From NCBI GenBank assembly GCA_903904835.1, contig CAIVEI010000102.1, forward strand, positions 1 to 64,000: DNA of 64,000 nucleotides. The letters run 5' to 3'. The translations under genes were made by a program, and so were the position numbers. Positions 16,182 to 64,000 of this stretch are shown in pieces; the first letter of the stretch is position 1, and the number at the start of each line of letters is the position of its first letter. A model generated the notes under the pieces. That model made no database searches and was not told the DNA's origin. It saw nothing but the letters and a program-made list of their open reading frames with translations. This DNA is from an uncultured Schlesneria sp. Lineage in GTDB: Bacteria; Planctomycetota; Planctomycetia; Planctomycetales; Planctomycetaceae.

Positions 16182-16396
16182 TGCGATCCTCCCGTCTTAA
16201 CGCTCGAATCCTGGGCGATGGTTTTCGCACAAAACTGAGATCGATGCTGGCGATTCGATTCGATATTCATGGGAGCTTTCCACGGACCAATCGACCGTCG
16301 AAAGGATTTTTTCGGATGTGTAATTGTCCAGTCAGTGTAACAAACTATTGAAACCTCCGTCAAAACCTTCCTGAGAAGTTCTGGTCGAGTAAATTG

Positions 16397-18463
16397 TTAT
16401 CGGTGTGGATTTGGCTTTCTTTGACTTCTTTTGCGCCCGCGTCCTCCCTTCGATTTCGAATTTGACGATTCGTCGTCCGATGGTACGGGTTTTCCGATTT
16501 GTTGCTTCAATTGAACAATTCGATCTCGCAATTTTGCAGCCCGCTCGAATTCGAGCGATTCAGCGGCGGCAAGCATTTCGGCTTCAAGTTCGCTGAGGTA
16601 CTCTTGTGTGACGTATTGGCTCTCGCTCTCGGCGCCGATCACCTTTTGCGTCATGCGCTTCGCTTCGATCTCTTCTTCAATTCCTCGGCGAATCGCTTTT
16701 TTGATTGTTTCCGGCGTGATTCCATTCCGTTGATTGTATTCGGTTTGCAGGATGCGGCGGCGGCCGGTTTCGTCAAGCGCCTGCTGCATACTGTCGGTGA
16801 CCCGGTCTGCATACAGGACGACCTCGGCGTTAACGTTGCGCGCCGATCGGCCGATCGTCTGGATGAGACTTGTGGCACTCCGCAAAAACCCTTCCTTATC
16901 CGCATCCAGAATCGCGACGAGCGAGACTTCCGGGACGTCGATCCCTTCTCGCAGCAGATTCACTCCGACGACGACGTCAAATTTCCCCTCCCGCAAGCTT
17001 CGTAAAACTTCGACGCGTTCGAATGCATCCAGTTCCGAATGAAGCCAGGCACATTTGATCCCTTCTTCGGTCAAGTATTTCGTCAGGTCTTCAGACAGTC
17101 TCTTTGTCAGCGTTGTGACAAGAGTTCGTTGGCCCTTGGCCGTTCGCTGCTTAATTTGCTCCAGCAAATGCTGGACTTGTCCTCGGGCCGGATGGATCGA
17201 AATCGTTGGGTCGAGCAGACCCGTCGGTCGAATCACTTGTTCGACTACTTCACCACCAGTCTGTTCGATTTCCCAATCCGATGGTGTCGCAGAAACAAAA
17301 ACGGTTTGTTTCCGTCGTGTGTTCCATTCTTCGAATTTTAACGGCCGATTATCGAGTGCCATCGGAAGTCGGAACCCATGTTCTACAAGTGTCGTTTTGC
17401 GCGCGTGATCTCCGTTAAACATCGCCCGAATCTGTGGCACGCTGACGTGCGATTCGTCGACGAACAGCAGGAAATCTTCGGGGAAAAAGTCGAGTAACGT
17501 GAATGGGGGTTCGCCCGGTTTGCGACCGGACAGTGCTCGACTGTAATTTTCGATTCCAGGGCAGAAGCCAATCTCTCGCAATAACTCCAGGTCATGTCGG
17601 GTTCGCGCATTCAGACGCTGCCTTTCGATCAGCTTCCCTTCGTTTTGAAACTTTTCCAGTTGTGAATTGAGTTCACTTTCAATCTCGCGAGTTGCATCCG
17701 TGATCCGATCCTCCGGTAACACGTAGTGTTTTGCGGGGTAGATGTAGATGTCGTTCAGTCGTTGAGCTTCCTCGCCAGTCAGAGGATTGATGATCGACAA
17801 CTTTTCGACCTCGTCGCCCCAAAGCTCGATCCGATAGGCGAATTCTTCGTACGCGGGCCAGACCTCGACGACATCGCCTCGTACGCGGAAATTACTTCGT
17901 GCGGGTGCGATATCGTTTCGTGAATACTGGATGTCACAAAGTCGTCGAAGAAGGTCATCCCTGTCGATTGATCCACCCACTGAGAGTGGCACCATCATTT
18001 CGAGGTAGTCCTTGGGTGAACCTAAGCCGTAGATACAACTGACGCTTGCCACGACTATGACGTCTCGGCGGCTCACCAGGGCGCTCGTCGCAAGGAGACG
18101 CAGCCGATCAATCTCTTCGTTGATCGACGAGTCCTTTTCGATGTAGATGTCTCGTTGAGGAATATACGCTTCGGGCTGATAATAGTCGTAGTAGCTGACG
18201 AAATAGGCGACGGCGTTGTTGGGAAAGAAATCACGGAACTCACCGTATAACTGCGCCGCCAGCGTCTTGTTGTGCGAAAGAATCAACGCCGGACGCTGCA
18301 TCTGCTGGATGACGTTGGCCATCGTGAACGTTTTGCCTGACCCTGTGACTCCCAATAGTACCTGATCTTTTTTTCCCTCACGAAGCCCTCGCACGAGCGA
18401 CTCGATTGCTTTCGGCTGATCTCCTGCGGGGTTGAACGGGCTGGCCAGTTGAAATTCAGGCAT
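16397..18463 (-). CDS. uvrB: Excinuclease ABC subunit B
   Basis: UvrB is the damage-verifying helicase of nucleotide excision repair, loading with UvrA and recruiting UvrC. The 688-residue protein has the expected length and motifs: Walker A GVTGSGKT near residue 40, the [12 protein letters not shown] beta-hairpin region, DESH helicase motif, the ATPSDWE segment, QTIGRSARN motif VI, and a C-terminal UVR coiled coil ([10 protein letters not shown]). The tail ends in a Lys/Arg/Ser-rich extension. No uvrA or uvrC is nearby; a 215-bp gap separates it from the kinase gene downstream. Confidence 0.98.
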
Positions 18464-18920
18464 TCGGCGACTCTTTCAACGGATGATTGATACCAAAAGA
18501 AAGTCTATCCGATTGGATCACATTTTCAGCAGTCGGAGGTCGTTCGCAAGATTAATTCATGAAAAGATCTCCGTGATCGAAGCTGGGAGACACATGCAAC
18601 AGCCTGAAGACATTCGCACAACCAGTTGGAAAATATCGGTCTTCTCCTTCACTGATCTCACTTGGTATCATGAGAGAACGAGACGATCCAGAATATTGCC
18701 AGGGTGGCAATTGAGATTCCGAGCGACTTAATTGAAAGAATCCGGCACCCGGTTGCCGTGCAAAGCCCCCCTGGCACATGAAAGGGGGGCGTCAAGCTGA
18801 TTGATTCAGGAAAAAAGAACGATGATCGTTTTTGATTTCTAATCTGATTCAACGAAATTGATTCAAATTTTCGTTCGACCGAACCCGACGCCTGTCATGG
18901 ATGCTGGAGAAAGGAATCTG
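18464..18920. other. Divergent intergenic region, uvrB / PEP-CTERM gene
   Basis: No convincing gene. A hairpin with 7-bp arms (GCCCCCC/GGGGGGC, loop 12) lies at 18765-18790. The stretch 18800-18870 is A/T-rich and probably carries the promoter of the PEP-CTERM gene, whose ribosome site AAAGGA sits just before ATG 18921. Confidence 0.4.
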
Positions 18921-19505
18921 ATGTTAAAACAAGTTCGTTTAATGGCAATCGTCTTAGCGGTTATTGCCACTCTGGGACGGAATTCTGCCCGAGGTGGTTT
19001 GATTACGAATGGTGATTTCGAAACGGGCGATTTTTCAGGCTGGACTCTCTCTGGCAACACTTCGGATCCGACAACCTATGGAGTCGACAGCAGTTTTCCC
19101 TACGAAGGAACATACAACGCCTATTTTGGCCCGCAGAAAAGTCAGGCATTCCTTTCGCAGACGATCGCAACGAATCCAGGACAGGTGTATGAACTCGAGT
19201 TTTTCTTGATGAACGAAGACGGGACTTCGGCAAATCATTTCAGCGTCAATTTCGGCTCGACGAGTTTGTACGATGCCACGAATCTTCCCACTTTCGACTA
19301 CCAGCAATATGACTACCAGGTCGCTGCGACGTCGACGACAACGACCGTGACACTCGGATTCCAAAACGATTTTAGTTACTTTGACGTCGACAACATCAGT
19401 GTCTCGCCCGTTCCGGAACCAAGCAGTTTGATTTGCTTTGCGATCGGCGCGATCCACATCGGATATTACGGTTGGCGAGAACGATTTGCGAGACGGAATA
19501 ATTGA
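18921..19505 (+). CDS. PEP-CTERM sorting domain protein
   Basis: The 194-residue exported protein starts at ATG 18921 after AAAGGA. It has a signal peptide (LMAIVLAVIATLGRNSARG), then a beta-sandwich-like domain beginning LITNGDFETGDFSGWTLSG, typical of carbohydrate-binding-like extracellular PEP-CTERM proteins. The C-terminal signal is complete: VPEPSS motif, hydrophobic helix, and a basic end (WRERFARR). Proteins with this tail are cut and sorted by an exosortase in exopolysaccharide-producing bacteria; no exosortase gene lies in this window. The next genes on the strand are also exported. Confidence 0.88.
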   Translation: MLKQVRLMAIVLAVIATLGRNSARGGLITNGDFETGDFSGWTLSGNTSDPTTYGVDSSFPYEGTYNAYFGPQKSQAFLSQTIATNPGQVYELEFFLMNEDGTSANHFSVNFGSTSLYDATNLPTFDYQQYDYQVAATSTTTTVTLGFQNDFSYFDVDNISVSPVPEPSSLICFAIGAIHIGYYGWRERFARRNN

Positions 19506-19556
19506 GCGTGCACGTGGTCGGACATTCGCGTCTTTCTAAAACGGGGGTTGCAAATA

Positions 19557-21116
19557 ATGGGACAATTCAAGCTGCGGACTTCGGTGTTCGGCCTGAGTCG
19601 CGCACTAATGCTCGCCACGATTTTCGTTTCTGCTTTCACCTCGCGTGACGCTGGCGCACAGTATTGGGGTGGTTACGGGGCCGACCCGCAGCATACTTGC
19701 CAGGCCCATGTGGCTTCTCAGCTTCCGCAAAAGGTTCTTTGGTCGATGCCTGTCGACCTGAATCCGACGTTCACCGGGGGCGATCTCTACATCCATTACG
19801 CCAGTCCTGTCATCACGGCCAAGAACACTGTCATCGTCACGGTTCGAGGCACGACATCCGACGCGAACATCTTTCAATTCAAGGCGGTCAAAGGTCAAGA
19901 CGGCTCGGTCGCCTGGTCGAGCCCATTAACGACAGACTATATTCTGCCTGCGCACAATTGGGTTCCGGTCTGTGGTCCGACATTAGTTTCCGGCGGCCTC
20001 AAAATTGCTGTGCCTGGAGCGGGGGGGACGGTCTATCTGAGGGCAAACCCTGACCGTGCAACCGGGGCCGTTTCCCAGATCCCGTTCTATACGAGCCTGA
20101 CCAACTACAAAGCGAATAAGACGAACTTCAATCAAAGTGTGTTCATTTGCACGCCGATCACCGCCGATGCGGACGGGAACCTGTACTTCGGATTCAATAT
20201 CCAAGCCGCTGCGACTGGTGCACCAGCAACCGGCGGCTTGGCGCGAATCTCAAGCGCCGGTGTCGGGAGCTATATTACGGCCGCTGCGGCGACCGGCGAC
20301 GGATCCATGCAAAAAGTTGTTTATAATTGTGCACCTGCCATCAGCACAGACGGCACGACAGTGTACGTTGCCGTCAACAGCGGAAACTTTGGTGGTGGCT
20401 ACCTTGTCGCTCTCGATAGCAAGACGCTTGGCACAAAGGCGCAAGTCCGATTGAAGGATCCCAAAACCGATTATGATGCCAGCCTTGCTGATGATGGTTC
20501 CGCCACCCCGACCGTGGGTCCCGACGGTGACGTTTATTTTGGCGTGCTGGAAACCCCGTTTCCGTCTCGGGTCGACCGGGGCTGGCTCCTTCATTTCAGT
20601 GGCGATTTAGCGACATTAAAAACGCCAGGCTCCTTCGGCTGGGATAACACCGCTTCCATCGTCCCGGCGAGTGCTGTTCCCTCGTATCAGGGTTCGTCTA
20701 AATACCTTGTTTTGACGAAGTACAACAATTACGCAGATTTCGGTCCGCCTGGAGACGGTCTCAACCGAATGGCTGTCCTCGATCCAAATGACACCCAGGT
20801 CGATCCGCTTTCGGGAGTGTTGACGATGAAAGAGGTGATTACAGTCCTCGGCCCGACAACAGATCCGAGATTTGGCGCTCCGGCCGTCCGAGAGTGGTGT
20901 GTTAACTCCGCTGCGATCGACCCGATTAACAAATGTGCCATCGTCAACTCTGAGGACGGAAACGTGTACCGATGGGATTTCACGACGAACACGCTCAGCC
21001 CCGCGCTCCCCTTGGCAGCCGCGACTGGCGAGGCGTATACCCCCACGGTTGTTGGGCCGGATGGTGCGGTCTACGCAATCAATCGAGCGGTCCTGAACTG
21101 CTGCGTCAAGAATTAG
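19557..21116 (+). CDS. Secreted PQQ-like beta-propeller repeat protein
   Basis: The 519-residue protein starts at ATG 19557 (an in-frame TTG lies at 19548) with a signal peptide ending at AGAQ. The mature part opens WGGYGADPQHTC, as many PQQ-like/outer-membrane-propeller proteins do. Repeats of the form DGxVYFG or DGAVYAI follow (DADGNLYFGF, GPDGDVYFGV, GPDGAVYAI), giving a seven- or eight-bladed propeller. No catalytic Asp/Glu pair typical of quinoprotein dehydrogenases could be assigned, so it may be structural or binding. It ends 28 bp before the G8 gene on the same strand. Confidence 0.8.
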   Translation: MGQFKLRTSVFGLSRALMLATIFVSAFTSRDAGAQYWGGYGADPQHTCQAHVASQLPQKVLWSMPVDLNPTFTGGDLYIHYASPVITAKNTVIVTVRGTTSDANIFQFKAVKGQDGSVAWSSPLTTDYILPAHNWVPVCGPTLVSGGLKIAVPGAGGTVYLRANPDRATGAVSQIPFYTSLTNYKANKTNFNQSVFICTPITADADGNLYFGFNIQAAATGAPATGGLARISSAGVGSYITAAAATGDGSMQKVVYNCAPAISTDGTTVYVAVNSGNFGGGYLVALDSKTLGTKAQVRLKDPKTDYDASLADDGSATPTVGPDGDVYFGVLETPFPSRVDRGWLLHFSGDLATLKTPGSFGWDNTASIVPASAVPSYQGSSKYLVLTKYNNYADFGPPGDGLNRMAVLDPNDTQVDPLSGVLTMKEVITVLGPTTDPRFGAPAVREWCVNSAAIDPINKCAIVNSEDGNVYRWDFTTNTLSPALPLAAATGEAYTPTVVGPDGAVYAINRAVLNCCVKN

Positions 21117-24769: not shown

Positions 24770-25356
24770 CCCCCATGCAAGACGAGCTTCCTGCCCAAAA
24801 TGGCCCCAGTGGATTTCTGATTGCCGTCAGTATCGTTGGTCTTTTGACAATTGGTTTTGCGTGGCTGCTTCGATCCGCGATGGCTCCGGCCTTATCACCA
24901 CAAATTGGCCGACCGTTTCCCCGTATCGAAGCGGCTGGCTGGATCAATGGTCCTGGACCAACGGTGGACGACCTTCAGGGGAAGGTCGTCGTGGTGGACG
25001 CGTGGGCTCATTGGTGCGGCCCTTGTCGGGCGGTCACGCCTTACGTCATTGAGTTACGCAACAAATACAAAGATCAAGGGGTCGTCTTTATCGGACTGAC
25101 TTCGGAGGGACTTGATTCCCGGTCGATTGATCTGAGTCGTCAATTCGTGTCGTCGCTCAATATTCCGTGGCCGAATGGCTATGGTGCGACGAAGACGCTG
25201 TCAGATCTGGAGGTTGACACGATTCCGCAACTATGGGTTATCGACCGTCAAAATCGGATCGTTTTTCATGAAATCGGGTTTGGAGATAATTCCATCAATG
25301 AGATGGAATCTGCCATCAAAAAAGCTCTGGCGGATTCTCCAGAAGTAAAAAAATAA
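24766..25356 (+). CDS. Membrane-anchored thioredoxin-like protein, TlpA/ResA type
   Basis: The 196-residue protein begins at ATG 24766, overlapping the carboxypeptidase stop by four bases; a second ATG at 24775 is possible. An N-terminal helix (FLIAVSIVGLLTIGFAWLL) anchors it with the thioredoxin domain in the periplasm. The active site is WCGPC, followed by the cis-Pro segment TIPQLWVID. TlpA/ResA proteins reduce disulfides, for example in cytochrome c or envelope protein maturation; no cytochrome gene is adjacent, so the client is unknown. Confidence 0.9.
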   Translation: MTPMQDELPAQNGPSGFLIAVSIVGLLTIGFAWLLRSAMAPALSPQIGRPFPRIEAAGWINGPGPTVDDLQGKVVVVDAWAHWCGPCRAVTPYVIELRNKYKDQGVVFIGLTSEGLDSRSIDLSRQFVSSLNIPWPNGYGATKTLSDLEVDTIPQLWVIDRQNRIVFHEIGFGDNSINEMESAIKKALADSPEVKK

Positions 25357-39457: not shown

Positions 39458-41293
39458 TTATTTTCCCTCGTCGATCGCGGCGTCACTGATTCCAAAGTAT
39501 GACTTCATCCGGTCGATGTACTCCCGATCATGGTCATAGTGGCACGCGCGCATCGCCTCGATGTAAGTTGCGTGTCCGTCGCCGATCCAATCGATAATGT
39601 TAAGAATTTCGAGTGTGGCATATGAACTGTCGCTGAGTAATTGATTCCAGCATTGTTGAGCTTCCGATTTTTCTCCGTCGCGATAAAGAATCCACGCCGC
39701 CATCGCTCGCACATGATCCGAATCGTCTTTCAGGCAACTGCGGATCAAATCATGATCCAGCTTCACGTGCCCTTGCAGATGAAAGCAGCCAATCACCGAC
39801 CAGTAACGAATCCCCGAATCGGAATGGCTGAGATTCCGGTAAAACGCTGGCAGATTTGCTGGGTCTTGCTTCATCGCCAACGCGGCAGACTGCTGGTAAC
39901 CCTTCAGATCGTACAACGATGGATCTCGGACAAGTTCGTAGATTGTCTTGTTGCTCGCTTCAGATCGCCGAACGAGTTCCGTTTCTGGTAATAAACCCGC
40001 ATCAAAATATTCCAGTTGCCAGGCGTCGAGAGCCTTGCTCAACCGTGCCAGTTCGTTGGCGTACCGTGGATGGGCCGCAAGGTTGTTCACGTTGTCTGGA
40101 TCTGCGGTCGTGTCGAAGAGTTCTTCCGTCGGTTTGGTCTTGAAGAATTGTCCGGTGACATCGTCAGTCTTGCCAGCCTTATGATATTGCTCCCAAGCTT
40201 GCGTTGCCTTCATCGTCCACAGGTAGTTCAGGTGTTGTCCCCATGGCACGTAGGGCATGTAGTTACGGATGTAAAGAAACTGCCGATCTCGGATCGCGCG
40301 GGAGTTATCAATTCGTTCATCCATCCGGCCGCGAAAGCTGACGTGATACTGTCGAGATTCTGCGTGGGGGCCGAGAAATATTTTGCCTTGCATATAAGTG
40401 GGGGTTTCTACCCCGCAAAGGCTCAGCCATGTCTTGGGCATGTCGATGAAGCTGACCAATTGGTCAATTGTCCCGCCCGGTTCGGCAGGGCGCAAGTGCT
40501 TGAACTTTTCTGGAATTCGCACGATCAGCGGGCAGTGGGTACCACTATTGTGCAAGCAGCGTTTACTGCGAGGCAGAACCCCGCCGTGGTCTGAGTTATA
40601 AATCACGATCGTGTTTTCAGTGAGGCCGCTCCTTTCCAATTCAGCGAGCGCCTTGCCGATGTCGGCGTCCATCTTTTTGACCTGATCGTGGTAGTGCGCG
40701 TAATTCTTGCGGATCTCAGGGATATCCGGGTGATATTTTGCCAGCCTTACCTTTTCGGGGCTGTGCGTCGTGTGATCGATGTCGCCAAACGCAGTCGATT
40801 CATGCGACTTCGTGCTGTTGATGACCATGAAAAACGGCTGACGTCTGGGCAGGTCATTCCAGTCCACCTTATTGGTGTCCCAGGCATTGCCGTCAGGTCG
40901 ACCGCCGATATTGTAGTCGGTCTTGGTCACGTTACCGACGTAGTATCCCTCTTGTTTGAGCAAATCGGGATAGTATTTGATTGTTCCGTGCGGAATCGGA
41001 TAGCGACTGCGCATCTGGTGTGTACCAGTCGACAGCGCATAGACACCAGTGATCCAGCCACTTCGCGACGGAGCACAAACCGGCGCGTTGGCATAGCAGT
41101 GCAGGTAGCGAAACCCTTCGGAAGCAAGCTTGTCAATATGCGGAGTCTCGGCGTATGGATTCCCATAGCAGCCAACCCAATCGACGCTATTGTCTTCCGA
41201 AGTCAGCCAGAGAATATTCGGACGGCCGTCCGCGTTGGCCAATGACGTCCTGACGACAAAGATGAAAGCCAGGCAGCAGAGAATTGTTTTCAT
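39458..41293 (-). CDS. Sulfatase, heparan N-sulfatase-like, with C-terminal HEAT-like repeats
   Basis: The 611-residue exported enzyme (signal TILCCLAFIFVVRTSLANA) belongs to the alkaline-phosphatase/sulfatase superfamily. The nucleophile motif is CAPSR, in which the cysteine becomes formylglycine; metal-site text includes TSEDNSVDWVGCYG near the start and YNSDHGG. Overall it resembles N-sulfoglucosamine sulfohydrolases acting on sulfated polysaccharides. After about residue 450 the chain shows helical repeats (SGIRYWSVIGCFHLQG, SDHVRAMAAWILYRDG) typical of HEAT modules, a common extension in planctomycete sulfatases. Confidence 0.92.
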   Translation of the reverse strand: MKTILCCLAFIFVVRTSLANADGRPNILWLTSEDNSVDWVGCYGNPYAETPHIDKLASEGFRYLHCYANAPVCAPSRSGWITGVYALSTGTHQMRSRYPIPHGTIKYYPDLLKQEGYYVGNVTKTDYNIGGRPDGNAWDTNKVDWNDLPRRQPFFMVINSTKSHESTAFGDIDHTTHSPEKVRLAKYHPDIPEIRKNYAHYHDQVKKMDADIGKALAELERSGLTENTIVIYNSDHGGVLPRSKRCLHNSGTHCPLIVRIPEKFKHLRPAEPGGTIDQLVSFIDMPKTWLSLCGVETPTYMQGKIFLGPHAESRQYHVSFRGRMDERIDNSRAIRDRQFLYIRNYMPYVPWGQHLNYLWTMKATQAWEQYHKAGKTDDVTGQFFKTKPTEELFDTTADPDNVNNLAAHPRYANELARLSKALDAWQLEYFDAGLLPETELVRRSEASNKTIYELVRDPSLYDLKGYQQSAALAMKQDPANLPAFYRNLSHSDSGIRYWSVIGCFHLQGHVKLDHDLIRSCLKDDSDHVRAMAAWILYRDGEKSEAQQCWNQLLSDSSYATLEILNIIDWIGDGHATYIEAMRACHYDHDREYIDRMKSYFGISDAAIDEGK

Positions 41294-41787
41294 CTTCTCG
41301 CCTTCCTTTTACAGTTTTTTTTGGGAACCGACAGGGTGGTTACGGACTCTACATTTCTGCGAGGTCCGTTGGCAACCGGGTCCAATTGAAAACTTGTGGC
41401 AAAAAGTGATCGCTTGAGTTCCTGGTCGCGCAGCTGGAATCCGAGTTTTTCGGCCAGATGTAACCCGAAAGTCATCGAGACCGTTTCGATGCGGCTTGCC
41501 AAAAAGTTAAACCATGATTTCCGCCGAGCCCTTTGTTGGCAGTCGCTGTTTACTAAATGAAATCGTATCTGCTTTGTTCACGCAGAGAAAAACGAATCTC
41601 CCCCGAAATCCTAGTCGATGTCGGGGGAGATTCGTAATTCACATCGATCGAAGCCCGGCATGCGTCAACAATCGAACCCCATCTCCGATCGATGAACTTC
41701 GGGACGTTGGCGAAATTGCATCTTGCGAAGGCTTGTTTCCATGGCCTGAAAGCCAATATGAGTCCAACGCATCAATGGTCTGAAATC
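41294..41787. other. Intergenic, cfa to sulfatase gene
   Basis: It contains the cfa terminator at 41593-41634 and the upstream region of the sulfatase gene, with ribosome site AAGGAAGG beside its ATG. Short open frames overlap the terminator and are not credible genes. Confidence 0.5.
41593..41634 (-). terminator. Rho-independent terminator of cfa
   Basis: A perfect 14-bp inverted repeat (CGAATCTCCCCCGA/TCGGGGGAGATTCG, loop 14) followed on the minus strand by TTTTTCTCTG. It lies about 150 bp after the cfa stop codon. Confidence 0.85.
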
Positions 41788-43023
41788 CTATGCGGCGGGC
41801 AAATAGAACTCGCTAGCGGCACGCTCATCGTCGACCATGTAATCTCGCACGATCGGAACCGCATCACGTTTGTTCGCCAACACGAGGTGAAAGACCATCT
41901 CTGATCCAGTCAGAAATGCCAGTTGGGCGGAAATCAGATAGAACTCCCACATGCGACACATGCGTTCGTCGTAGATCGCCGCCGCTTTATCCCAATTCGC
42001 CATGAATCTCTCGCGCCAGTCACGAAGAGTGTAGTAGTAGTGCAACCGAAGAACTTCGCAGTCGGCGACCCAGATACGCTGGCGTTCTGCTGGAGCGAAT
42101 ATCTCGGATAGTGAAGGAGCGTAGCCTCCTGGGAAAATGTATTTTCGAACGAAAGGGCTGGCAGTACCAGGTGGGGCATTGCGTCCGATGCTATGCACAA
42201 GTCCGATACCGTCTTCCGTGAGCAGGCTCCGGAATTTGCGAAAGAACTCGTCATAGTGACCAACCCCGACGTGTTCCAGCATTCCCACCGACACGACGCG
42301 GTCGTATTTTCCCTGCAAATCTCTGTAGTCCATGTGCTCGAAATGGACACGTTTTTCGAGGCCCAATCGCCTGGCCCGCTCGCGTGCGACGCGAATTTGT
42401 TCGATCGAGAGATTGACAGCCGTTACTTCGACATCGGCGCTCTGTGCGATATGGAGCGCCAATCCTCCCCAGCCGCAACCCAATTCGGCAATCTTCATTC
42501 CGTCTTCGATTTTCAACTTGGCACAAACATGACGTTTCTTGTTGAGCTGGGCTTCCTCAAGTGTGTCATCGGGGTTGCGATAATAGGCACATGTGTATTG
42601 CATGTCCTCATCAAGAAACAGGCGATAGAACTCGTCTGATAGATCATAGTGATGAGAAGCATTTTTCAGTGCTTTGCCCATGGGGTTGTGTTGATGCAGT
42701 CGTCGCAGCCATCTCCACGAATGACGCAATATGGTTTGTATTGGGTGCCCCGTAAGCCCGGTACGATTGTTCGAAAACAGGTTCAGTAAGTCGAAACACG
42801 TCGAGCCTTCTTCAAACGTCAGCTCGCCATTCATATAGGCTTCGCCAACATACAATTCCGGGTTAAAAAAGAGCTTGGTGTAGAGAGATTTATTGTGCAA
42901 TCGGATCGTCACGGTCGGTTCGGAAGGGGTTCCGGAAAATGTGTGTAGTTTTCCAGACACATCGATGACACGCAGAGTACCGCGCTGGACGAATCGGCGA
43001 AGCAACGTGGATAACAGTTTCAT
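41788..43023 (-). CDS. cfa: Cyclopropane-fatty-acyl-phospholipid synthase family methyltransferase
   Basis: The 411-residue protein starts at ATG 43023 after GGAGGA; the frame runs upstream to 43089 without a site. The SAM-binding motif is IAELGCGWGGLALHIA, followed by VTAVNLSIEQIRVARERA, the family hallmark YDRVVSVGMLEHVG, and SHHYDLSDEFYRLFLDEDMQYTCAY before it. It methylates unsaturated acyl chains of membrane lipids to cyclopropane or a related modification. A terminator follows; the gene is likely transcribed alone. Confidence 0.93.
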   Translation of the reverse strand: MKLLSTLLRRFVQRGTLRVIDVSGKLHTFSGTPSEPTVTIRLHNKSLYTKLFFNPELYVGEAYMNGELTFEEGSTCFDLLNLFSNNRTGLTGHPIQTILRHSWRWLRRLHQHNPMGKALKNASHHYDLSDEFYRLFLDEDMQYTCAYYRNPDDTLEEAQLNKKRHVCAKLKIEDGMKIAELGCGWGGLALHIAQSADVEVTAVNLSIEQIRVARERARRLGLEKRVHFEHMDYRDLQGKYDRVVSVGMLEHVGVGHYDEFFRKFRSLLTEDGIGLVHSIGRNAPPGTASPFVRKYIFPGGYAPSLSEIFAPAERQRIWVADCEVLRLHYYYTLRDWRERFMANWDKAAAIYDERMCRMWEFYLISAQLAFLTGSEMVFHLVLANKRDAVPIVRDYMVDDERAASEFYLPAA

Positions 43024-43555
43024 GCGTGTCCTCCATGACAATGAAATTTCGGAACGGTGGCAACCGTCGACTGTTAACGCTCGACCCACACGCTATTGAA
43101 CCGGTGACGCAAATGAAGTAAGGCATTACTGGTTTTTTAATGTGCAGCCAGGCGGAAACGTTTGGATATCCTTCACCAACGCAGACCCGGTTTTAGAAGA
43201 ATCCTCCGTCGGCAAATTCTCGTCAAATAACGTTTTCAGTCAATTGATGATTAGCGTAGAAACTCTGCCAGAAGCCGAAGTGTGAGTAATGGAATATCAT
43301 TCTGGCATTACGATGGTTACGACATAAACGACGAATTTGCGATTGACACGCGACGCCGCACACGCGACGAATGGGATGAAAAGCGGATGAAGAACACGGT
43401 TTGGCTGGTCCGCCAAGCATCCAATATCATGCTATCAAAGGAATTTTCCCAGTAAACTTGAAAAGCAATACTTCATTCACGTCAACGATGGAGGCTCTGG
43501 GTTGAACGGTTGAAGCTGTCGGCAGAAAACCGGTTTGGAAAGATCATCCGTGACT
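43024..43555. other. Intergenic, small membrane protein to cfa
   Basis: No domain-bearing frame and no strong hairpin. A minus-strand open frame at 43223-43420 has no ribosome site and no protein-like features. The right edge near 43023 carries the cfa ribosome site. Confidence 0.4.
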
Positions 43556-43837
43556 CTAAAGGATTTTATGCACAAGCCAGCAGAAAGCGAGAATGTTTGA
43601 TCCAATGGTGACCGATACGATCACGAGGTTCATTCTTTCCTGAATATTGAGGATGAAACGAGCGATAAAAAAACCAGTGGAGAATACGAATCCAATCGCC
43701 GTTACGATCCCCCAAAGTAACTCATTAATGAGAAGTAAGCCTATGGAGCAGATGACTGGCAAAGCAATAAGCTTCGGTCCGATAAAATAATTCAATCTTG
43801 CTTCTATCTCATCGTACCGATCGTCGTTGTCTCTCAT
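43556..43837 (-). CDS. Small three-helix membrane protein of unknown function
   Basis: I do not recognise the family. The 93-residue product from ATG 43837 has a short charged N-terminus (RDNDDRYDEIEARLN) followed by three predicted membrane helices (LIALPVICSIGLLLINELLW, TAIGFVFSTGFFIARFIL, LVIVSVTIGSNILAFCWLV). The frame is open upstream to 43897, overlapping no gene. The ribosome site is weak. It lies 86 bp after the zinc-ribbon gene on the same strand and may belong to that unit. Confidence 0.6.
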   Translation of the reverse strand: MRDNDDRYDEIEARLNYFIGPKLIALPVICSIGLLLINELLWGIVTAIGFVFSTGFFIARFILNIQERMNLVIVSVTIGSNILAFCWLVHKIL

Positions 43838-43923: not shown

Positions 43924-44838
43924 TTATTCCGTCTTTCGGCGGATTCGCAAACGGTTTGGTTCGATTTCAATTTGCCAACCTGCCGGTTCCGTCACGGCCT
44001 TGATGACATCGCGAAGGGAGATTCGTTTATCAAATTCGAATGTTATTTTTTCATCGAGTTTCTCTGCGCCGAGTTCGTCTTTGTCATATTCGATTTCGTT
44101 TGGTTTGCCGAGAAGTTCACGCAGGGTAACAATCAGTTCACGCCGACTGACGGGTTTCGTTTGTTTATACTCTGCAAACTTAAACAATAGACTTTCATTG
44201 ATGTCGTTTTGAGGAGGACGCGGAGGAAGAATTACGGCAGGCTGCTCTTGTTTTGTGTCAGGTGAAATAGCGACTGGAAGACTAAGGAGCGGGCCATCGA
44301 TATTCGCAGGCTCGAGAGCAGAAACACTGGTCGTAACTTGATCGATGTCGGTTTTTGTGCCTGACGTTTGTATGACAATCGAAGGTTCTGCAACTGGTTC
44401 GGCGGCTTGTAATTGTTCAGGAGCCTGAACTTTTGGTGGCTCTACAACGCCATCTTTTCCATTGATAGTTGGAACGGGCCGAGCAGCGAATCGATGTTTT
44501 GGCGCAAGTGCCAGAACGGCAACGAATGCTGAGATTCCGAAGGCGAGCAACCATGCCACAGTGAGTGGTGAATCAATGAGTTTGCCGATGAATGAACGAG
44601 CCGATGGTGACGGCACGAGAATTTTGTCGGGCGGAGCGCTCTTGCCGCGAAGAGCAGGGTCTGGAGTGGCCTGTTCGTCCGGAGTTAACTTTCGTGCGAC
44701 AAAATCGCCATGTTCATTCTGGTTGGAAATCCTGAGTGGGGTCTTGCATTCCGGGCAGTTCACTCGTCGGCCGACGAAAGAGCGATCACGAATCCGCAGG
44801 ATCGTACCGCAATCAGGGCATGAACAACGGCCGGGCAT
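43924..44838 (-). CDS. Zinc-ribbon single-pass membrane protein of unknown function, short paralog
   Basis: The 304-residue protein starts CSCPDCGTILRIRD...VNCPECKTPLRI, a four-cysteine MJ0042-type zinc ribbon. One membrane helix follows near residue 95 (TVAWLLAFGISAFVAVLALA), then a Pro/Ala-rich linker, and a C-terminal domain from about residue 225 whose end (ITFEFDKRISLRDVIKAV...WQIEIEPNRLRIRR) resembles the small beta-alpha-beta fold of secretin N-terminal/STN domains. Cytoplasmic ribbon and periplasmic tail are likely. It follows the longer relative by 36 bp. Confidence 0.75.
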   Translation of the reverse strand: MPGRCSCPDCGTILRIRDRSFVGRRVNCPECKTPLRISNQNEHGDFVARKLTPDEQATPDPALRGKSAPPDKILVPSPSARSFIGKLIDSPLTVAWLLAFGISAFVAVLALAPKHRFAARPVPTINGKDGVVEPPKVQAPEQLQAAEPVAEPSIVIQTSGTKTDIDQVTTSVSALEPANIDGPLLSLPVAISPDTKQEQPAVILPPRPPQNDINESLLFKFAEYKQTKPVSRRELIVTLRELLGKPNEIEYDKDELGAEKLDEKITFEFDKRISLRDVIKAVTEPAGWQIEIEPNRLRIRRKTE

Positions 44839-44874
44839 GGAAGTAGGACCGAATGAGGACTCTTGAAAACGGGA

Positions 44875-46782
44875 CTATTTTGAGAGATCGAAAGGCTTCA
44901 GACCTTTGTCATTTGCAGTTGCAAGGGTCGTCACAACCACATTCTTCTTTGACTCATCGACAACAATCACCAATGTCTTTTCCGGCTTTGGATCGATCCC
45001 TTTTGATTCCTTAAAAATCATCAGAATGATGTCCTGGACTTTGGCACCGTCCATTTTGAATACTTGAGCAATGTTTTTTGTAAACCCACCCAACTTGAGG
45101 GCGTCGCCGTCGATTTCGAACGGGGTCTTGATTTCCCCCCCGATAAAAGCAAACGCTTCGTTTAATGGAGTTCGTCTGAAATCGACGTCGATTTTCATTT
45201 TCAATCGGTCAGCGATGAGTTCAGGTACTGAAGGGCCATCGGGTGAAGTCGGTTTCGCTTTCGCTTTGGAAAAATCCGTTCTTGTTGACTCGTCCCAGGC
45301 GAGCAAGGTTCCCAGAGCCAGGTTCGGAGCGGCTCGGTCGGGCAGAGGGGTAATTAACTGTACGTGTTGCGGTCCGTGATTAACGATTGTCGCAAGCGAA
45401 AAGACTTCGACCATTGCTGGAACGCGACCAATCACCATTCGTTTACCTTGTTCTCGCGGATTCATCTGCTCGATTTGCGGGAGAAGGCTTTCCGCCAACT
45501 GCGCCAGCTTCGTCTTAAAGTCTTGCTCCAGCTTCTTCGCCGAATTCTTTCCGGAAGTCCCTTTGCCTCGCAAAAGAATTTCTGAATAAAATTGTTCATC
45601 CTTCAGGTGAAAACTCCAAGAAACGCTCTCTACTTCTTCACCCAGCCAATCGAGCGAGTTTTTGACAAATGGACGAACGTTCTCGGGAAACCACGTCTCC
45701 TGTAGACCAAGAGTCAGCGGAGTAAAAATCGCGGTAATATGTCGATCACGGTCAGTCATCGGAAGCAGTGGGTCGATCTGTTCCACGGGATGTCGTTTCT
45801 TGATCGCCTCGACCATTTCCTGGGTCTGGCTTTTGGGGCAGGCGACGAGCGTTTTCTTATCGACAATCATATAAGCACGATCGCCTTTGGTGTAGACCGA
45901 TTGTCCGTCCACTTCAAGATACTGGCCGAACTGTTCAATCAACTGGCTTTGTTTCTGTTCGTCAACCATGTGTGCGACGACCGCAAGATCGGGCAGGCTG
46001 CCTCGTATTCCGGGTAGCAGGCAGATCAGTAATTCGTCGACTTGTTCGGGCTTGCGCTGAAACAAATCGTTGAGAGTCGTTTCCACGAGTTTGGCGAGTG
46101 GGGGGACGCAATAGCGGATTTCTTCACCCAGGCTTCCAGGTTTCCAGAGTTCGGCTGGATGAAGGTTCAGCACAACCTGTGTTCCAAAGGGTATATATTG
46201 CAGTTGAATCGGTTTCCCCTGCGTGGGTGAACGCGGATTTGCAAAACCGGTCAATAAGGTCTGGCCAGACTCGTCGTCATTTGCAGGCTCTGTCCCGTTT
46301 GTTTTTTCTTCTGCTTTCGTGACGGTGTTTTTATCTACTGATTTCGGACCGAAGAACACCAACCCGCCAATCAATGCTGCCGCCAGTGCCGTGATTGCCA
46401 ATCCGATATTGCGTTGACGGGCACTTTTTCTCTGTTGTTCTTTCAGTCGTTCGGCGGTTCCTTTGGGTTTAACGACCTGATCCAGGTCAGTCAAAATGGG
46501 GGAGATACCAATAGCAGGCGAAACAGTTTCTTTCGGAGTTGCCTGAGAAGAAATTGTCGGTTGGATAATTTCAAAAAATGCTGGCGTGCTGGCTGCTTTC
46601 GAAGGGGAGTTTGTCGCGGACGCTACCGGGTCAGGATTCGCGAGTTCCAGAGAAACAACCGGAGGTTCTTCTAGGATAAACGTGTGAGCACATTTGGGGC
46701 ATTTGCCCTTTCGACCGAGCAAACTGCGGTCAGGCAATTTCAGCTCTCGGCCGCAGTTCGGACAGGGAATTTGAATTGACAT
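44875..46782 (-). CDS. Zinc-ribbon single-pass membrane protein of unknown function, long paralog
   Basis: The 635-residue protein starts at ATG 46782 (an in-frame GTG lies at 46791). The N-terminus IPCPNCGRELKLPDRSLLGRKGKCPKC is an MJ0042-type zinc ribbon matching that of the next gene. A membrane helix lies near residue 133-150 (IGLAITALAAALIGGLVFFG). The middle region has no name I can give. The C-terminal part (MKIDVDFRRTPLNEAFAFIGGEIKTPFEI to KNVVVTTL) resembles secretin N-terminal/STN folds. The divergent neighbour is the LplT-like transporter. Confidence 0.75.
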   Translation of the reverse strand: MSIQIPCPNCGRELKLPDRSLLGRKGKCPKCAHTFILEEPPVVSLELANPDPVASATNSPSKAASTPAFFEIIQPTISSQATPKETVSPAIGISPILTDLDQVVKPKGTAERLKEQQRKSARQRNIGLAITALAAALIGGLVFFGPKSVDKNTVTKAEEKTNGTEPANDDESGQTLLTGFANPRSPTQGKPIQLQYIPFGTQVVLNLHPAELWKPGSLGEEIRYCVPPLAKLVETTLNDLFQRKPEQVDELLICLLPGIRGSLPDLAVVAHMVDEQKQSQLIEQFGQYLEVDGQSVYTKGDRAYMIVDKKTLVACPKSQTQEMVEAIKKRHPVEQIDPLLPMTDRDRHITAIFTPLTLGLQETWFPENVRPFVKNSLDWLGEEVESVSWSFHLKDEQFYSEILLRGKGTSGKNSAKKLEQDFKTKLAQLAESLLPQIEQMNPREQGKRMVIGRVPAMVEVFSLATIVNHGPQHVQLITPLPDRAAPNLALGTLLAWDESTRTDFSKAKAKPTSPDGPSVPELIADRLKMKIDVDFRRTPLNEAFAFIGGEIKTPFEIDGDALKLGGFTKNIAQVFKMDGAKVQDIILMIFKESKGIDPKPEKTLVIVVDESKKNVVVTTLATANDKGLKPFDLSK

Positions 46783-60287: not shown

Positions 60288-62417
60288 TTAGCCATTCTTC
60301 CTGAGAAATAATGAGACCGCATCCATTAATCGAACATATTGTCCACGACATTCTGGCCACATCGACATGGCTTCGTCGAGATCCCCTTCTGCGGCAGCTT
60401 TTTCAAGCCGGGACATCGAAGCACAAGCCAGATGACCACCAACATTGTCCGCCGAAGACTTGAGCGAATGAGCCATACGACGGGTTGCCGTTTGATCTCG
60501 TTCGTTTAAGTGAGTTTGCAAGCTTTCAATCCAATCGGGGCAAATCTGAATAAACATCTCAGCGATCTGTTGAAGCAGGTCTTCGTCGCCGCCGACACGC
60601 TCAAGGGCCGCAGCACGATCAAAAGCATCGCCCGTGATCACAGGCGTTTCGACGACACCGCTTGCGAGCTGTGGTGTTGTTGAGTCTTCAATCGGTGCTG
60701 AAATCAGAGCTTGAATCTGTTCAAACAATTCTGTGCGGTTGATGGGTTTGGTGGCAAAGTCATTGCAACCGGCGTCGGTACATTTCTGGCGGTCTCCCTG
60801 CATCACGTTCGCGGTCAATGCCAGGATCGGCCGAGTCCATCCGCGAGCACGAAGTTCGGCGGTGGCAGCGTACCCATCCAGAATCGGCATCTGCATATCC
60901 ATCAACACAATCTGGAAGGGATGGCCATCGGAAATCGAAGCGAGGGCAGCATCAACAGCTTTGCGCCCGTTATCGACGATCGTGACGTCGGCTCCGAGTT
61001 TGCGAAGGAACGAACCGATCAACAGTTGATTGTCTGGGCCGTCCTCTGCCAGAAGTATGCGTCCTGACAATCTCGCATCGGCTGATCCAATGACGGGAGA
61101 CGCCAGTTTGCCAATCGACGACGGACGATCATGCCACTTCGCATCAACGATGGAATCCGTCCCAATATGTACTCGAAACGTGCTGCCGACACCTTTTTGA
61201 CTCGTTGCAACAACGTCGCCACCCAGCATTCTTGCCAGTCGACGGCTGATTGAAAGACCCAGGCCAGTCCCTCCAAACCGTCTTGCCATGGATTCGTCTG
61301 CTTGCATAAACGGCGAGAATAATCGGGCAAGTTGCTCGTCTGACATCCCGATACCCGTATCGACAACGTCGCATTGCAGCCACAGTTGACGATCCTGGTT
61401 TGCCGCTCGACACACGTTGCCATTTTCATCGAGCATACTCATACGCAGGCTGACGTGTCCCCGTTCCGTAAACTTGATTCCGTTACTGATCAGGTTCATC
61501 AGGATCTGACGCAGTCGAGTTGGGTCGCTTTCGATCAAATCCGGAATCGGGCCGTCATAGATCAGTGACAGTCCAATCTGTTTCGAGGCGGCACGGACTT
61601 GCAATGCCGAGATCACATCCGCCGCCAATTCGCCCGGCGAGAACTTCAGTCGTTCAATCTCTAATCGTTCTGCTTCGATCTTCGACAAGTCCAGGATGTC
61701 ATTGATCAATTGCAGTAGATGATGACCATTCCGCAAAATCGTCTCGGTTGCCGCAGTTCGTTCGTCGGAAGTGTAATCGGGATCGAGCAGGTTTTCGGCG
61801 AATCCAAGAATCGCCGTCAGCGGAGTCCGAATCTCGTGACTCATATTCGCAAGAAAGAGACTTTTCGCACGATTGGCCGCCTCGGCGACGTCGGCTTGAG
61901 ACCGAATCGTTTCGTTTGCGAGTACCAGCAATTGAGACTGTGCAATCAGCAACGTGTGCACGTCGAGCAACCGAAACTCGCTGACATCCCGGACAACGAC
62001 CGGTTCGTACACTCGGTCAGCCGGACGATGCAGAGCAGTATGTGCTGCTTCGCTGACCAGCATATCGCTCGGTAATACAAGAGGGTCATTCCGCTCGGCT
62101 TCGAGCAATAATCGAATCGGGCGCTTTAAGTAGAGGTCTTGCCCGAATGGTCGTGACAGTTGAGCGAACAGCATCGGACGAGAAATCATCCCCAGTAGTT
62201 CGCTGCCTGAGGCGATCACGACGCCGGGAACGTCAGGAGCCGATCCGAGTTCCCGATCAACGACGCTGGTCAACATCTCCGGGGAAACAGTAACTTCAAA
62301 TGACGGAATTCCCCCGAGCGTTGTCTCCGCTGTCAGCGACTTTAACCACTCCCGCGCCGAGATATCGCCCGTCAAGTTCATGTCGTCATCGATCAGGTTG
62401 TATTGTGATTCGTTCAT
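60288..62417 (-). CDS. Hybrid sensor histidine kinase (HisKA-HATPase-REC-Hpt)
   Basis: The 709-residue kinase starts at ATG 62417; a second ATG lies at residue 13. The first about 170 residues form an unnamed sensory region resembling paired CBS-like motifs (VPGVVIASGSELLGMIS; EPVVVRDVSEFRLL). Then follow HisKA (NMSHEIRTPLTAILGF, histidine near residue 195), HATPase (MNLISNGIKFTERG; DTGIGMSDEQL; GGTGLGLSIS), a receiver (LMDMQMPILDGYAAT) and a C-terminal Hpt domain (AHSLKSSADNVGG). No membrane helix is seen, so it is probably cytoplasmic. It likely feeds phosphate to the response-regulator-HATPase protein encoded next. Confidence 0.93.
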   Translation of the reverse strand: MNESQYNLIDDDMNLTGDISAREWLKSLTAETTLGGIPSFEVTVSPEMLTSVVDRELGSAPDVPGVVIASGSELLGMISRPMLFAQLSRPFGQDLYLKRPIRLLLEAERNDPLVLPSDMLVSEAAHTALHRPADRVYEPVVVRDVSEFRLLDVHTLLIAQSQLLVLANETIRSQADVAEAANRAKSLFLANMSHEIRTPLTAILGFAENLLDPDYTSDERTAATETILRNGHHLLQLINDILDLSKIEAERLEIERLKFSPGELAADVISALQVRAASKQIGLSLIYDGPIPDLIESDPTRLRQILMNLISNGIKFTERGHVSLRMSMLDENGNVCRAANQDRQLWLQCDVVDTGIGMSDEQLARLFSPFMQADESMARRFGGTGLGLSISRRLARMLGGDVVATSQKGVGSTFRVHIGTDSIVDAKWHDRPSSIGKLASPVIGSADARLSGRILLAEDGPDNQLLIGSFLRKLGADVTIVDNGRKAVDAALASISDGHPFQIVLMDMQMPILDGYAATAELRARGWTRPILALTANVMQGDRQKCTDAGCNDFATKPINRTELFEQIQALISAPIEDSTTPQLASGVVETPVITGDAFDRAAALERVGGDEDLLQQIAEMFIQICPDWIESLQTHLNERDQTATRRMAHSLKSSADNVGGHLACASMSRLEKAAAEGDLDEAMSMWPECRGQYVRLMDAVSLFLRKNG

Positions 62418-62760
62418 GAGGTTCAGCCACGTTCAGTTTTTAACACGGCGAGCTGAGGCGATCGGATTGTACTCTTCAATCATGCTGGTCTACCAACCTG
62501 CAGAAAATGATGAAGAATTGATGAAGATTTGAAGAGGAGGGCACGATCGATGAAATCCTCTCGACATCCAGGCGAGCCGGGGATGTCAATCCCAGGATTC
62601 TTCTCCCCGACTGAAACCAAACAGTCTAAAAACGCAAAAGTGTTGAAAAGAATTTAAAAAAATTCAAAATAAAATGAAACATGAGCGACTTTCAAGTCTT
62701 CTGATTAGCGAAAATGAGTGCTGATCAGTGTTCCGATCTTTCTCTTCGTCGTTTTCAGCT
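62418..62760. other. Intergenic upstream of the hybrid kinase
   Basis: It contains the promoter region of the hybrid kinase gene and an A-rich stretch at 62620-62680 (AAAAGTGTTGAAAAGAATTT). No gene or strong hairpin is evident. Confidence 0.4.
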
Positions 62761-63294
62761 TTGAGCAACTATGGCGGCGTTTGCGCAACATTGACGGAAA
62801 CCAGGCGTTTTTCGATGTTTCGGTGGTACGGACACTTGCGCAACTATGGCCAAGCTTGCGCAACGATGGTTGCGCGACGCTGGCGAGCCGGTAGCGGAGT
62901 CTCCTAGCCTCCGATCTCGAACGACGAAGTCAGTTCGACGTTGACGGAGTTTGAGCAACTCTGGCGGCGTTTGCGCAACATTGATGGAAAGCAGGCATTT
63001 TTCAATGTTTCAGTGGTACGGACACTTGCGCAACTATGGCCAAGCTTGAGCAACGACGGTGCGCGACGCTGGCCAGCCGGTAGCGGAGTCTTCTAGTCGC
63101 CGATCTCGAATGACTAAGGTTGTTCGACATTAACGGTGTTTGCGCAACTATGGGATTTTTGCGAGACATTGGTGGAATGCAGGGCTTTTTCGAAATCTCA
63201 ATGTTACGAACGCTTGCGCAACTATGGACACGCGACTCTGGCAATGCTTGCGCGACATTGGTGCGCGACGATGACCGCATTTGCGCAACTATGG
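62761..63294. repeat. 190-bp tandem repeat array carrying a 14-bp TTGCGCAACTATGG motif
   Basis: Two near-identical units start at 62761 and 62951, and a degenerate third at 63140. Each unit carries several copies of TTGCGCAACTATGG or close variants (TTGAGCAACTATGG, TTGCGCAACATTGA, TTGCGCGACGCTGG). At least 16 copies lie in 534 bp, at spacings 20, 55, 20, 14 and 81 that recur in the first two units. The core TTGCGCAA is an 8-bp palindrome. Open frames through the array exist on both strands but translate to low-complexity text, so it is probably non-coding. It is not a CRISPR. Confidence 0.85.
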
Positions 63295-64000
63295 AGCCCC
63301 TTCGAATTCTCAAAGCAAGAACAGGCTGGTGTCGAGTCTTCGAGACCCCAGCCGAAACGGCTAGAAAGTTGACCAGAAGTGAGTAGGCCATGAAAACGAA
63401 TCCATGCCATGAATTATCCACTCTTGAGGAATTTGGCGTCGGAAATGACGCAGAGTTCCTTAGGTAAATGGAGCGGAAGCTCCTGGCGAGCCGCCTGCGG
63501 CGGCTCAGTACTTTCTCAAAACTACTCTCTGCCGCTTCGGCCCGCCCACCAAAACTTCAAACAAAGCCATGATCGAACTCGTCAAAAAAGTTGGCCAAGT
63601 TGGCAAAGTTGACCAACATCCGTGTTTTATAGGCGTTTTCCAGGTTTGAACTTGGCCAACGTTGTCAAATTCCTTCGTTTTTGCGATCTCTTCGGCTCGT
63701 CCGCCGTATCGTCCAAACGCATCGTTTAACCGCGCCTCGAAGAGAAGCGAGTTATCCGGAGCAAGGAACGAAACCCGAGACGACATTCGCAAAATCGCCG
63801 CCGAAACCAAATCGCAGCGAAGTTCGTAAGTAAGCGACTGATCTCCGAACCGCCTGCGCCGTTGGCTTCGGGTAAAGCGACCAGAAAACATCCCTCATTT
63901 TCATTAAATCAGTATGCGACATAAAAATACAAGAGTTTATGTCGAATGTCAATAGGCCTCCGTGAGTCGTTTCTTAACGTTTGGAATGTGCTCCTTGATT
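63295..64000. other. Right-end non-coding or decayed region with hairpins
   Basis: No credible gene. A hairpin with 8-bp arms (GAGCCGCC/GGCGGCTC) is at 63488-63506. A 9-bp tandem repeat GTTGGCCAA-GTTGGCAAA-GTTGACCAA at 63590-63616 is partly complementary to AACTTGGCCAAC at 63649-63660. A minus-strand open frame at 63505-63891 runs through these hairpins and is judged spurious. A gene may begin beyond the right edge. Confidence 0.4.

Follow-up and report, generated by a model that had tools for sequence, protein, structure and literature searches.

A 14-bp repeat array of Schlesneria forms part of a dispersed, promoter-bearing and apparently noncoding element that may be co-regulated with phage-like genes

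The window analyzed here, a 64,000-nucleotide stretch of contig CAIVEI010000102.1 from an uncultured Schlesneria sp., carries close to its right-hand end a dense array of short repeats, and the question it raises is what such an array represents. A first-pass annotation had interpreted it as a multi-site protein-binding array of the partition, nucleoid-organizing or origin-like kind. Sixteen copies of the motif TTGNGCAACNNTGG, all with three mismatches or fewer, are present on the plus strand within positions 62761 to 63294 (Table 1), 13 of which carry at most one mismatch, compared with a maximum of one in 500 mononucleotide shuffles. The earlier count of at least 16 copies was correct, as was the reported spacing (20, 55, 20, 14, and 81) for the first unit, and the higher-order unit of about 190 bp was recovered by Tandem Repeats Finder (period of 190 bp, 2.6 copies, 81% matches). 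By eye, two spacer classes separate the motifs within this unit, one of 41 nt (class A) and one longer (class B). Four minus-strand matches with no more than two mismatches to TTGNGCAACNNTGG also occur inside the array, partly because the motif core is nearly self-complementary. A search with the exact 14-mer, allowing up to two mismatches, returned nine matches in the window, eight of them in the array, where 0.36 were expected. A lone near-match outside the array, TTCCGCAACTATGG at positions 25223 to 25236, fits chance. As detailed below, the array belongs to a larger element which the earlier annotation had not recognized, and its assignment as the 3′ part of a multicopy, promoter-bearing, and apparently noncoding element is well supported.

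TABLE 1 Features of the array, of the element copy that contains it, and of the adjoining gene
Feature	Position(s)	Strand	Remark
16-copy directional array of TTGNGCAACNNTGG (CCANNGUUGCNCAA on minus-strand transcript)	62761..63294	+	Predicted 3′ module of element
Array site starts	62761, 62781, 62836, 62856, 62870, 62951, 62971, 63026, 63046, 63059, 63140, 63159, 63214, 63248, 63261, 63281	+	
Higher-order tandem repeat, 190-bp period, 2.6 copies	62760..63256	+	Tandem Repeats Finder
Common module CGAGTCTTCGAG(G/A)CCC adjoining array; transcript form GGCCTCGAAGACTCG	63333..63348	+	
Short GTTGGCCAAG-type tandem copies at 63590, 63599, 63608, 63651	63590..63660	-	Module recurs in other element copies
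-10-like hexamer TATTTT	63924..63929	-	Alignment of own-genome copies
-35-like hexamer TTGACA, 18 nt from dyad	63947..63952	-	
Dyad-symmetric box TTCCAAACGTTAAGAA, 16 bp	63971..63986	-	Predicted activator site
Conserved extension upstream of dyad; family consensus TCATGAGCACC (minus strand)	63987..63999	-	Partly diverged in window
Neighboring hybrid histidine kinase gene (HisKA, HATPase_c, receiver, Hpt)	60288..62417	-	Outside element

Across the genome to which the window belongs (G000, 8.18 Mb), the motif was matched 143 times with at most one mismatch, compared with twice for a backwards control. Forty of the 43 array places retrieved from this genome hold two or more sites, and 39 of the 43 carry these on a single strand, the others (L175, L192, L210, and L214) adding one or two opposite-strand sites. 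Spacings of 14, 20, 34, 55, 68, 81, and 94 recur among the arrays, and the spacers group, by eye, into recurrent classes. Within the 14-mer, the segments TTG, GCAAC, and TGG are nearly constant, while positions 4, 10, and 11 vary. At the 43 own loci, 155 of 245 sites have C at position 4, as do 58 of 152 at 12 loci of G002 and 15 of 52 at four loci of G001; the palindromic core TTGCGCAA noted earlier is thus not the conserved feature, and it was rejected as the functional one. Similarly, the suggestion that sites occupy similar faces of the helix was not borne out, since spacings of 14, 20, 34, 55, 81, and 94 keep no single face at 10.5 bp per turn. When only the 41-nt spacer was used to locate arrays, agreement with the consensus reached 88% in the 14-mer upstream of it and 91% in that downstream, compared with 68% in the spacer itself (23 full spacers found; some bias remains, the model having been derived from 45 spacers between recognized motifs). 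Because the 14-mer is better conserved than the spacer, multi-site recognition may still be envisaged. That part of the original interpretation which rests on a clustered, conserved, and nonrandom motif stands, and the even spread without clustering or conservation that would have indicated a decayed mobile repeat was not what the motif search of own and congeneric genomes returned; the notion of a unique partition or origin-like locus is not supported, as the arrays occupy some 40 places. An exact-motif scan of genome contigs returned at least 114 stretches, and, among the 80 matches listed, one Schlesneria contig held two sites and the rest one each.

Common 12-mers to the right of the arrays led to a second conserved sequence, TTCTTAACGTTTGGAAGGTGCTC, whose 15-base core has 68 own-genome matches at one mismatch or fewer (backwards control, 0 and 1). 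With two mismatches allowed, this box was found in 21 of the 25 own loci that extend 1.5 kb or more past the array on the right, 250 to 1,244 bp away on that side. It is missing at L179, L191, L202, and L214, of which L191 and L214 coincide with matches to the hairpin model described below, and it was found neither on the left of the array nor on the opposite strand at any of the 43 own array loci. Read on the opposite strand, the 70 aligned own box matches display a consistent layout, namely, the dyad TTCCAAACGTTAAGAA, 18 nt, TTGACA, about 17 nt, and a TATTTT-like hexamer, which constitutes promoter-like sequence with the usual spacing (on spacer lengths, see PMC6461901). Promoter statistics were calculated for 63 of the 70 matches, leaving out L264, L269, L272, L299, L302, L309, and L311; L272 is the phage-like cluster discussed below, and L264 and L269 resemble elements with a flipped box. 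The -35 hexamer is offset from the dyad by 18 nt in 51 of these 63 copies, the -35/-10 spacer measures 17 nt in 35 (the tie-break favored 17), and 55 passed a simple -35/-10 layout test, compared with 0.7% of random stretches. Aligned without gaps, the copies show far stronger conservation in the box and promoter than past them, and only the box end appears sharp in the own-copy alignment. Four promoter-like sites were detected in the window (shuffle mean, 1.0), the TTGACA/TATTTT site being the best, with 10 of 12 matches. Transcription is predicted to start near position 63917, seven bases past the -10 hexamer, which would place the dyad center about 61.5 bp upstream of the start; class I activators use a position of about -61.5. 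Scans of IMG/VR with two box patterns returned no match.

The body between box and array has a modular structure. By median position, and on one strand, TTGATCTTTGACATCTTGG is followed by a hairpin (150 to 330), TCGATCGAAC-type repeats (450 to 600), the GTTGGCCAAG-type module, GGCCTCGAAGACTCG, and finally the CCATAGTTGCGCAA array; strand cannot be judged for GTTGGCCAAG, as it is near-palindromic. The copy in the window extends to about position 63999 and holds the promoter, GTTGGCCAAG copies, the GGCCTCGAAGACTCG word (with one change), and the array; it is absent among matches to the hairpin model, R1. The 5′ module is matched at 43 of the 63 own box loci, and at 30 the match spans the hairpin. 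The hairpin alignment comprised 28 sequences hand-picked from 37 candidates (the duplicates L258, L260, and L261 were dropped); a first fold gave no structure, and a second gave seven pairs, five of which are accompanied by compensatory changes, with a weak RNAalifold consensus energy of -1.81 kcal/mol. Protein coding was considered for the own-genome elements and set aside, as they contain many short frames on either strand, none of which was seen, by eye, to be common to the copies. In three bodies from G006 (L259, L410, and L416), open frames of 230 to 372 codons lie near the box, but the matching frames share 36 to 64% amino acid identity, below the 75 to 83% nucleotide identity of the longer matches. 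Such values are as expected of noncoding DNA and make coding in the G006 bodies, as judged from these comparisons, doubtful.

To trace the distribution of the element, 15 congeneric genomes were compared. The R1 model, for which 150 candidates were scored per genome, recovered 62 copies in G000, 54 in G005, 48 in G002, and 41 in G001, one weak match in G006, and none in the 10 other genomes. The array motif is matched 143 times in G000, 101 times in G002, 51 times in G001, and five times in G005, with three matches or fewer in each of the other 11, and the array is, accordingly, a lineage-amplified module of the element. G005 possesses 54 R1 copies and 51 boxes yet only five array-motif matches; because its elements are many and its array motifs few, the array is not essential to the element. 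In the same genome, one box (contig C87, L322) lies beside a large NB-ARC-like frame, as judged by eye from its translation, and the element there seems to run the opposite way.

Comparison of individual loci revealed both shared positions and turnover. Six of the 12 G002 array loci (L217 to L220, L222, and L223) are bordered by genes that also border array or box loci of the own genome, while no shared flanking genes were found for the other six (L221 and L224 to L228) against an incomplete own set; array copy number varies between orthologous loci. The flanks beyond the box yielded four cross-species pairs, three of which resemble true orthologues. The kinase gene adjoining the window array served as a flank for locating orthologous sites, its orthologue being 94% identical in G001, 88% in G002, and 85% in G005. 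At this site, G002 has 12 motif matches, G001 has one exact motif and, by eye, a degenerate second, and G005 has neither motif nor box, holding only sequence that resembles, by eye, the TCGCGCGAAC module. Since the orthologous site is nearly emptied in G001 and lacks the motif in G005, single element copies are dispensable. Rows L354, L359, and L360, taken from the wrong side of the gene, were left out of this comparison. On contig C153 of G002 (L223 and L370), the two ends of a segment match positions 16174 to 20100 and 40998 to 43828 of the own contig C34 (L178 and L179) with order and orientation kept. On one side, the sequence outside this segment corresponds to C34 positions 44440 to 45913, which flank the other element, and on the opposite side the support is limited to a 254-bp stretch of element sequence (75% identity). 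The interval of about 28 kb that separates two inverted element copies thus appears inverted relative to its outer flanks between G002 and the own genome. From these matches, the two inverted copies have apparently recombined, and elements can act as recombination sites.

The dyad is distributed more widely than the R1 body. The sequence TTCYWAACGTTWRGAA occurs 45 times in G000, 36 in G002, 34 in G006, 27 in G005, 25 in G007, and 22 in G001, with no occurrence in the other nine of the 15 genomes and none for the backwards control in all 15. A -35/-10 layout accompanies 12 of the 25 G007 sites and one of the four G006 sites read, the random rate being 1.7%. Bodies differ between species groups. 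Three G006 loci have bodies alike at 75 to 83%, and these seem to hold a GTTGGCCAAG-type module, the same peptide words being visible by eye in them and in own copies; the G006-group and own-group elements may, on this sequence resemblance, be related. In G007, three dyad sites lie just upstream of AAA_25 helicase-like genes (L419:2631-3971, L421:554-2467, and L425:2578-3780), in one case with the box about 55 bp ahead of the frame. The remaining G007 dyad sites are near unrelated genes.

One own-genome box precedes a phage-like capsid/tail cluster rather than an element body. This cluster sits between host genes, at about positions 34000 to 49000 of contig C58 in G000 (L389) and on contig C22 in G007 (L431 and L438), and pilus-like host genes adjoin it in both genomes (by eye). 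In the own genome, one exact box with its conserved extension lies ahead of a prohead-protease-like gene, which is followed by genes for Phage_capsid, head-tail adaptor, neck, and tail-tube proteins and by further genes. Against phage records, the protease gave one match, to a head maturation protease at 33%. The flanks of the own cluster box score 11.4, far above the 99.9% level of the background (-12.2) and just short of 13.0, the tenth-percentile score among the kept elements, whose minimum is -15.5. The protease gene, first in the cluster, is present in nine of the 15 genomes (broken in G003), and the capsid gene adjoins it also in G001 (97% identical), G002 (97%), and G007 (89%). A box is located upstream of the cluster in seven of the eight loci read, the exception being that of G014, and an ATG follows 54 nt after the box in each of the seven (for G006, an ATG at 45 was called first by the script and is attributed to chance). 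Six of these seven loci have a -10-like TTTAAT at offset 41, which is the -10 position of the elements. In most species, the match to the -35 is poor, with sequences such as TTGTTG or TTTTTC. The cluster box takes the perfect TTCCAAACGTTTGGAA form in G006 and G007 and departs from it by one change in G004, and in G001, G002, and G005 it is one change from the own form. G004 and G007, both with boxed clusters, have no R1 match, and G006 has the one weak match. Neither portal nor terminase was detected among the 10 ORFs scanned in G000 and the 10 in G007, which represent part of the cluster ORFs.

The shared box and its conserved offsets suggest that the element is co-regulated with the phage-like cluster, and the element likely produces an RNA. 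In the mechanism proposed here, an activator dimer would bind the dyad TTCCAAACGTTAAGAA, and sigma70-type transcription would proceed from the predicted start on the minus strand to yield an RNA of about 1.2 kb, the 3′ half of which would consist of CCANNGUUGCNCAA repeated in series, after a region of other short repeats; in many copies, the window copy not among them, a hairpin is predicted near +200. About 60 copies would be switched on jointly, together with the presumably domesticated capsid/tail cluster under the same box. The repeats are, as a best guess, a multivalent RNA tail, such that the RNA might recruit one binding protein in many copies, and repeat copy number would shift quickly through recombination. 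Taken as a whole, i.e., as a noncoding element with a dyad-activated minus-strand RNA, some 60 copies co-switched with the phage-like cluster, and multivalent repeats, this proposal is the one toward which we lean, at somewhat better than even confidence. A broader version, in which one box in six species fires both a phage-particle cluster and dozens of noncoding RNAs, with the promoter and some modules kept, other modules exchanged, and the window array acting as a multivalent tail, is doubtful and is put forward tentatively from the sequence comparisons; our confidence in it was lowered because the layout is present at only 12 of 25 G007 sites and one of four G006 sites and because the cluster -35 is poor. 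Module exchange between species groups would fit RNAs that are in an arms race with phage-like particles or that serve them.

The main rival explanation is that the element is a selfish or decaying interspersed repeat, noncoding and carrying a passenger promoter, which was amplified in one clade and whose arrays are functionless minisatellites changing by recombination. The clade-limited R1 copies, the differing array copy numbers at orthologous loci, the near disappearance of the window-site copy in G001 and its loss or change in G005, the apparent recombination of two inverted copies between G002 and the own genome, and the divergent bodies of the species groups are all in keeping with such a repeat. 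It accounts poorly, however, for box and promoter being far better conserved than the sequence beyond, for the maintained hairpin pairing, for a dyad that persists in G006 and G007 despite one weak and no R1 match, respectively, for flanking genes common to own loci at half of the G002 array loci, and for a motif that is more conserved than its spacer, and we consider it possible, if on the whole unlikely. A multi-site protein-binding array operating at the DNA level (nucleoid, partition, or origin-like) without transcription appears improbable: the 14-mer is directional, clustered, and conserved, with positions 4, 10, and 11 variable as in a protein site, but there are about 40 dispersed arrays instead of one, helical phase is not constant, the array lies on one side of a promoter-like box at 21 of 25 testable loci, and G005 combines 54 elements with only five motif matches. 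A partition or iteron locus was also rejected in view of the 43 places retrieved and the absence of matches to ParA, ParB, and Rep in the array-side neighbors scanned, which number 20 of the 35 in the list.

The array could also belong to a long regulatory leader of the adjacent kinase gene, with the transcript running into that gene. The array-side neighbor is on the transcript strand at 28 of the 40 own loci with a called neighbor, as a leader would require; the other 12 neighbors point the opposite way, 15 of the 28 same-strand neighbors begin 250 to 400 bp past the array, leaving room for a promoter of their own, and 19 of the 20 scanned neighbors possess Pfam families, all of them different. 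We regard a kinase leader as very unlikely, and a leader of any one gene class was rejected on the same diversity of neighbors.

With regard to known systems, a CRISPR array, with near-identical repeats of 24 to 48 bp and unique, equal spacers, was rejected, since the motif here is 14 bp long, spacings range from 13 to several hundred, and spacers recur. REP/BIME units, imperfect stem-loops of 20 to 40 bp, were rejected because the 14-mer is directional and its palindromic core is not conserved. As dispersed intergenic repeats in clusters, the elements resemble REP/BIME sequences; they differ from these in their length of about 1 to 2 kb, their ordered modules and promoter, and a 14-mer that forms no stem-loop. 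According to PMC3733652, REPs occur in Planctomycetes as well. GOLLD, a long phage-tied noncoding RNA, rises during phage lysis, as stated in PMC12286853. The elements are likewise long, apparently noncoding, and phage-linked, the RNA here being predicted from sequence, but they differ from GOLLD and ROOL in being present in about 60 dispersed chromosomal copies per genome and in having tandem short repeats rather than an elaborate fold. GOLLD and ROOL were rejected as identities for the window copy, given that Rfam covariance models yielded no match to them in positions 62400 to 64000; 10 element loci searched against Rfam matched neither GOLLD nor ROOL, and the three weak matches obtained there were to other families and fell short of the gathering score. 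An Acido-Lenti-1 RNA match (L280:3134-3179, minus strand) scores 36.7 compared with a gathering score of 37 (E, 0.00011) and lies on the far side of the box.

The chromosomal capsid/tail cluster, situated between host genes, with its first gene in nine of 15 genomes and a common box, bears some resemblance to gene transfer agents and other domesticated phage clusters, from which it differs in that no portal or terminase was detected among the scanned ORFs. We know of no gene transfer agent system of which co-regulated, dispersed noncoding elements are a part. CsrB-type sponge RNAs carry many copies of one short motif per RNA, and the element RNA might, by analogy, work alike; the motif and family are unrelated. 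No description of the element family was found in Rfam or among the titles and abstract openings listed for open papers on Schlesneria and planctomycete repeats, noncoding and small RNAs, start sites, gene transfer agents, and GOLLD. The findings suggest that dozens of previously undescribed RNAs may be switched on along with virus-particle genes. Such a system, if true, would represent a large planctomycete regulon, in which virus-derived particle genes and some 60 noncoding elements are placed under one activator; it would replace the vague notion of "intergenic repeats" with a gene family that can be tested and whose promoter is defined, and it would offer a fast-evolving model for the rise and spread of repeat-rich RNAs.

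The elements may also explain some contig breaks in these assemblies. In 16 of the 43 own array loci, the sequence stops no more than 600 bp to the right of the array, compared with three in which it does so on the left, an excess of right-hand contig ends that is as expected if repetitive sequence there breaks the assembly. The array can take a nearly pure tandem form, as at one G002 locus (contig C147, L217), where 34 motif matches are arranged mostly in 20-bp steps with the variant TTGGGCAACTATGG.
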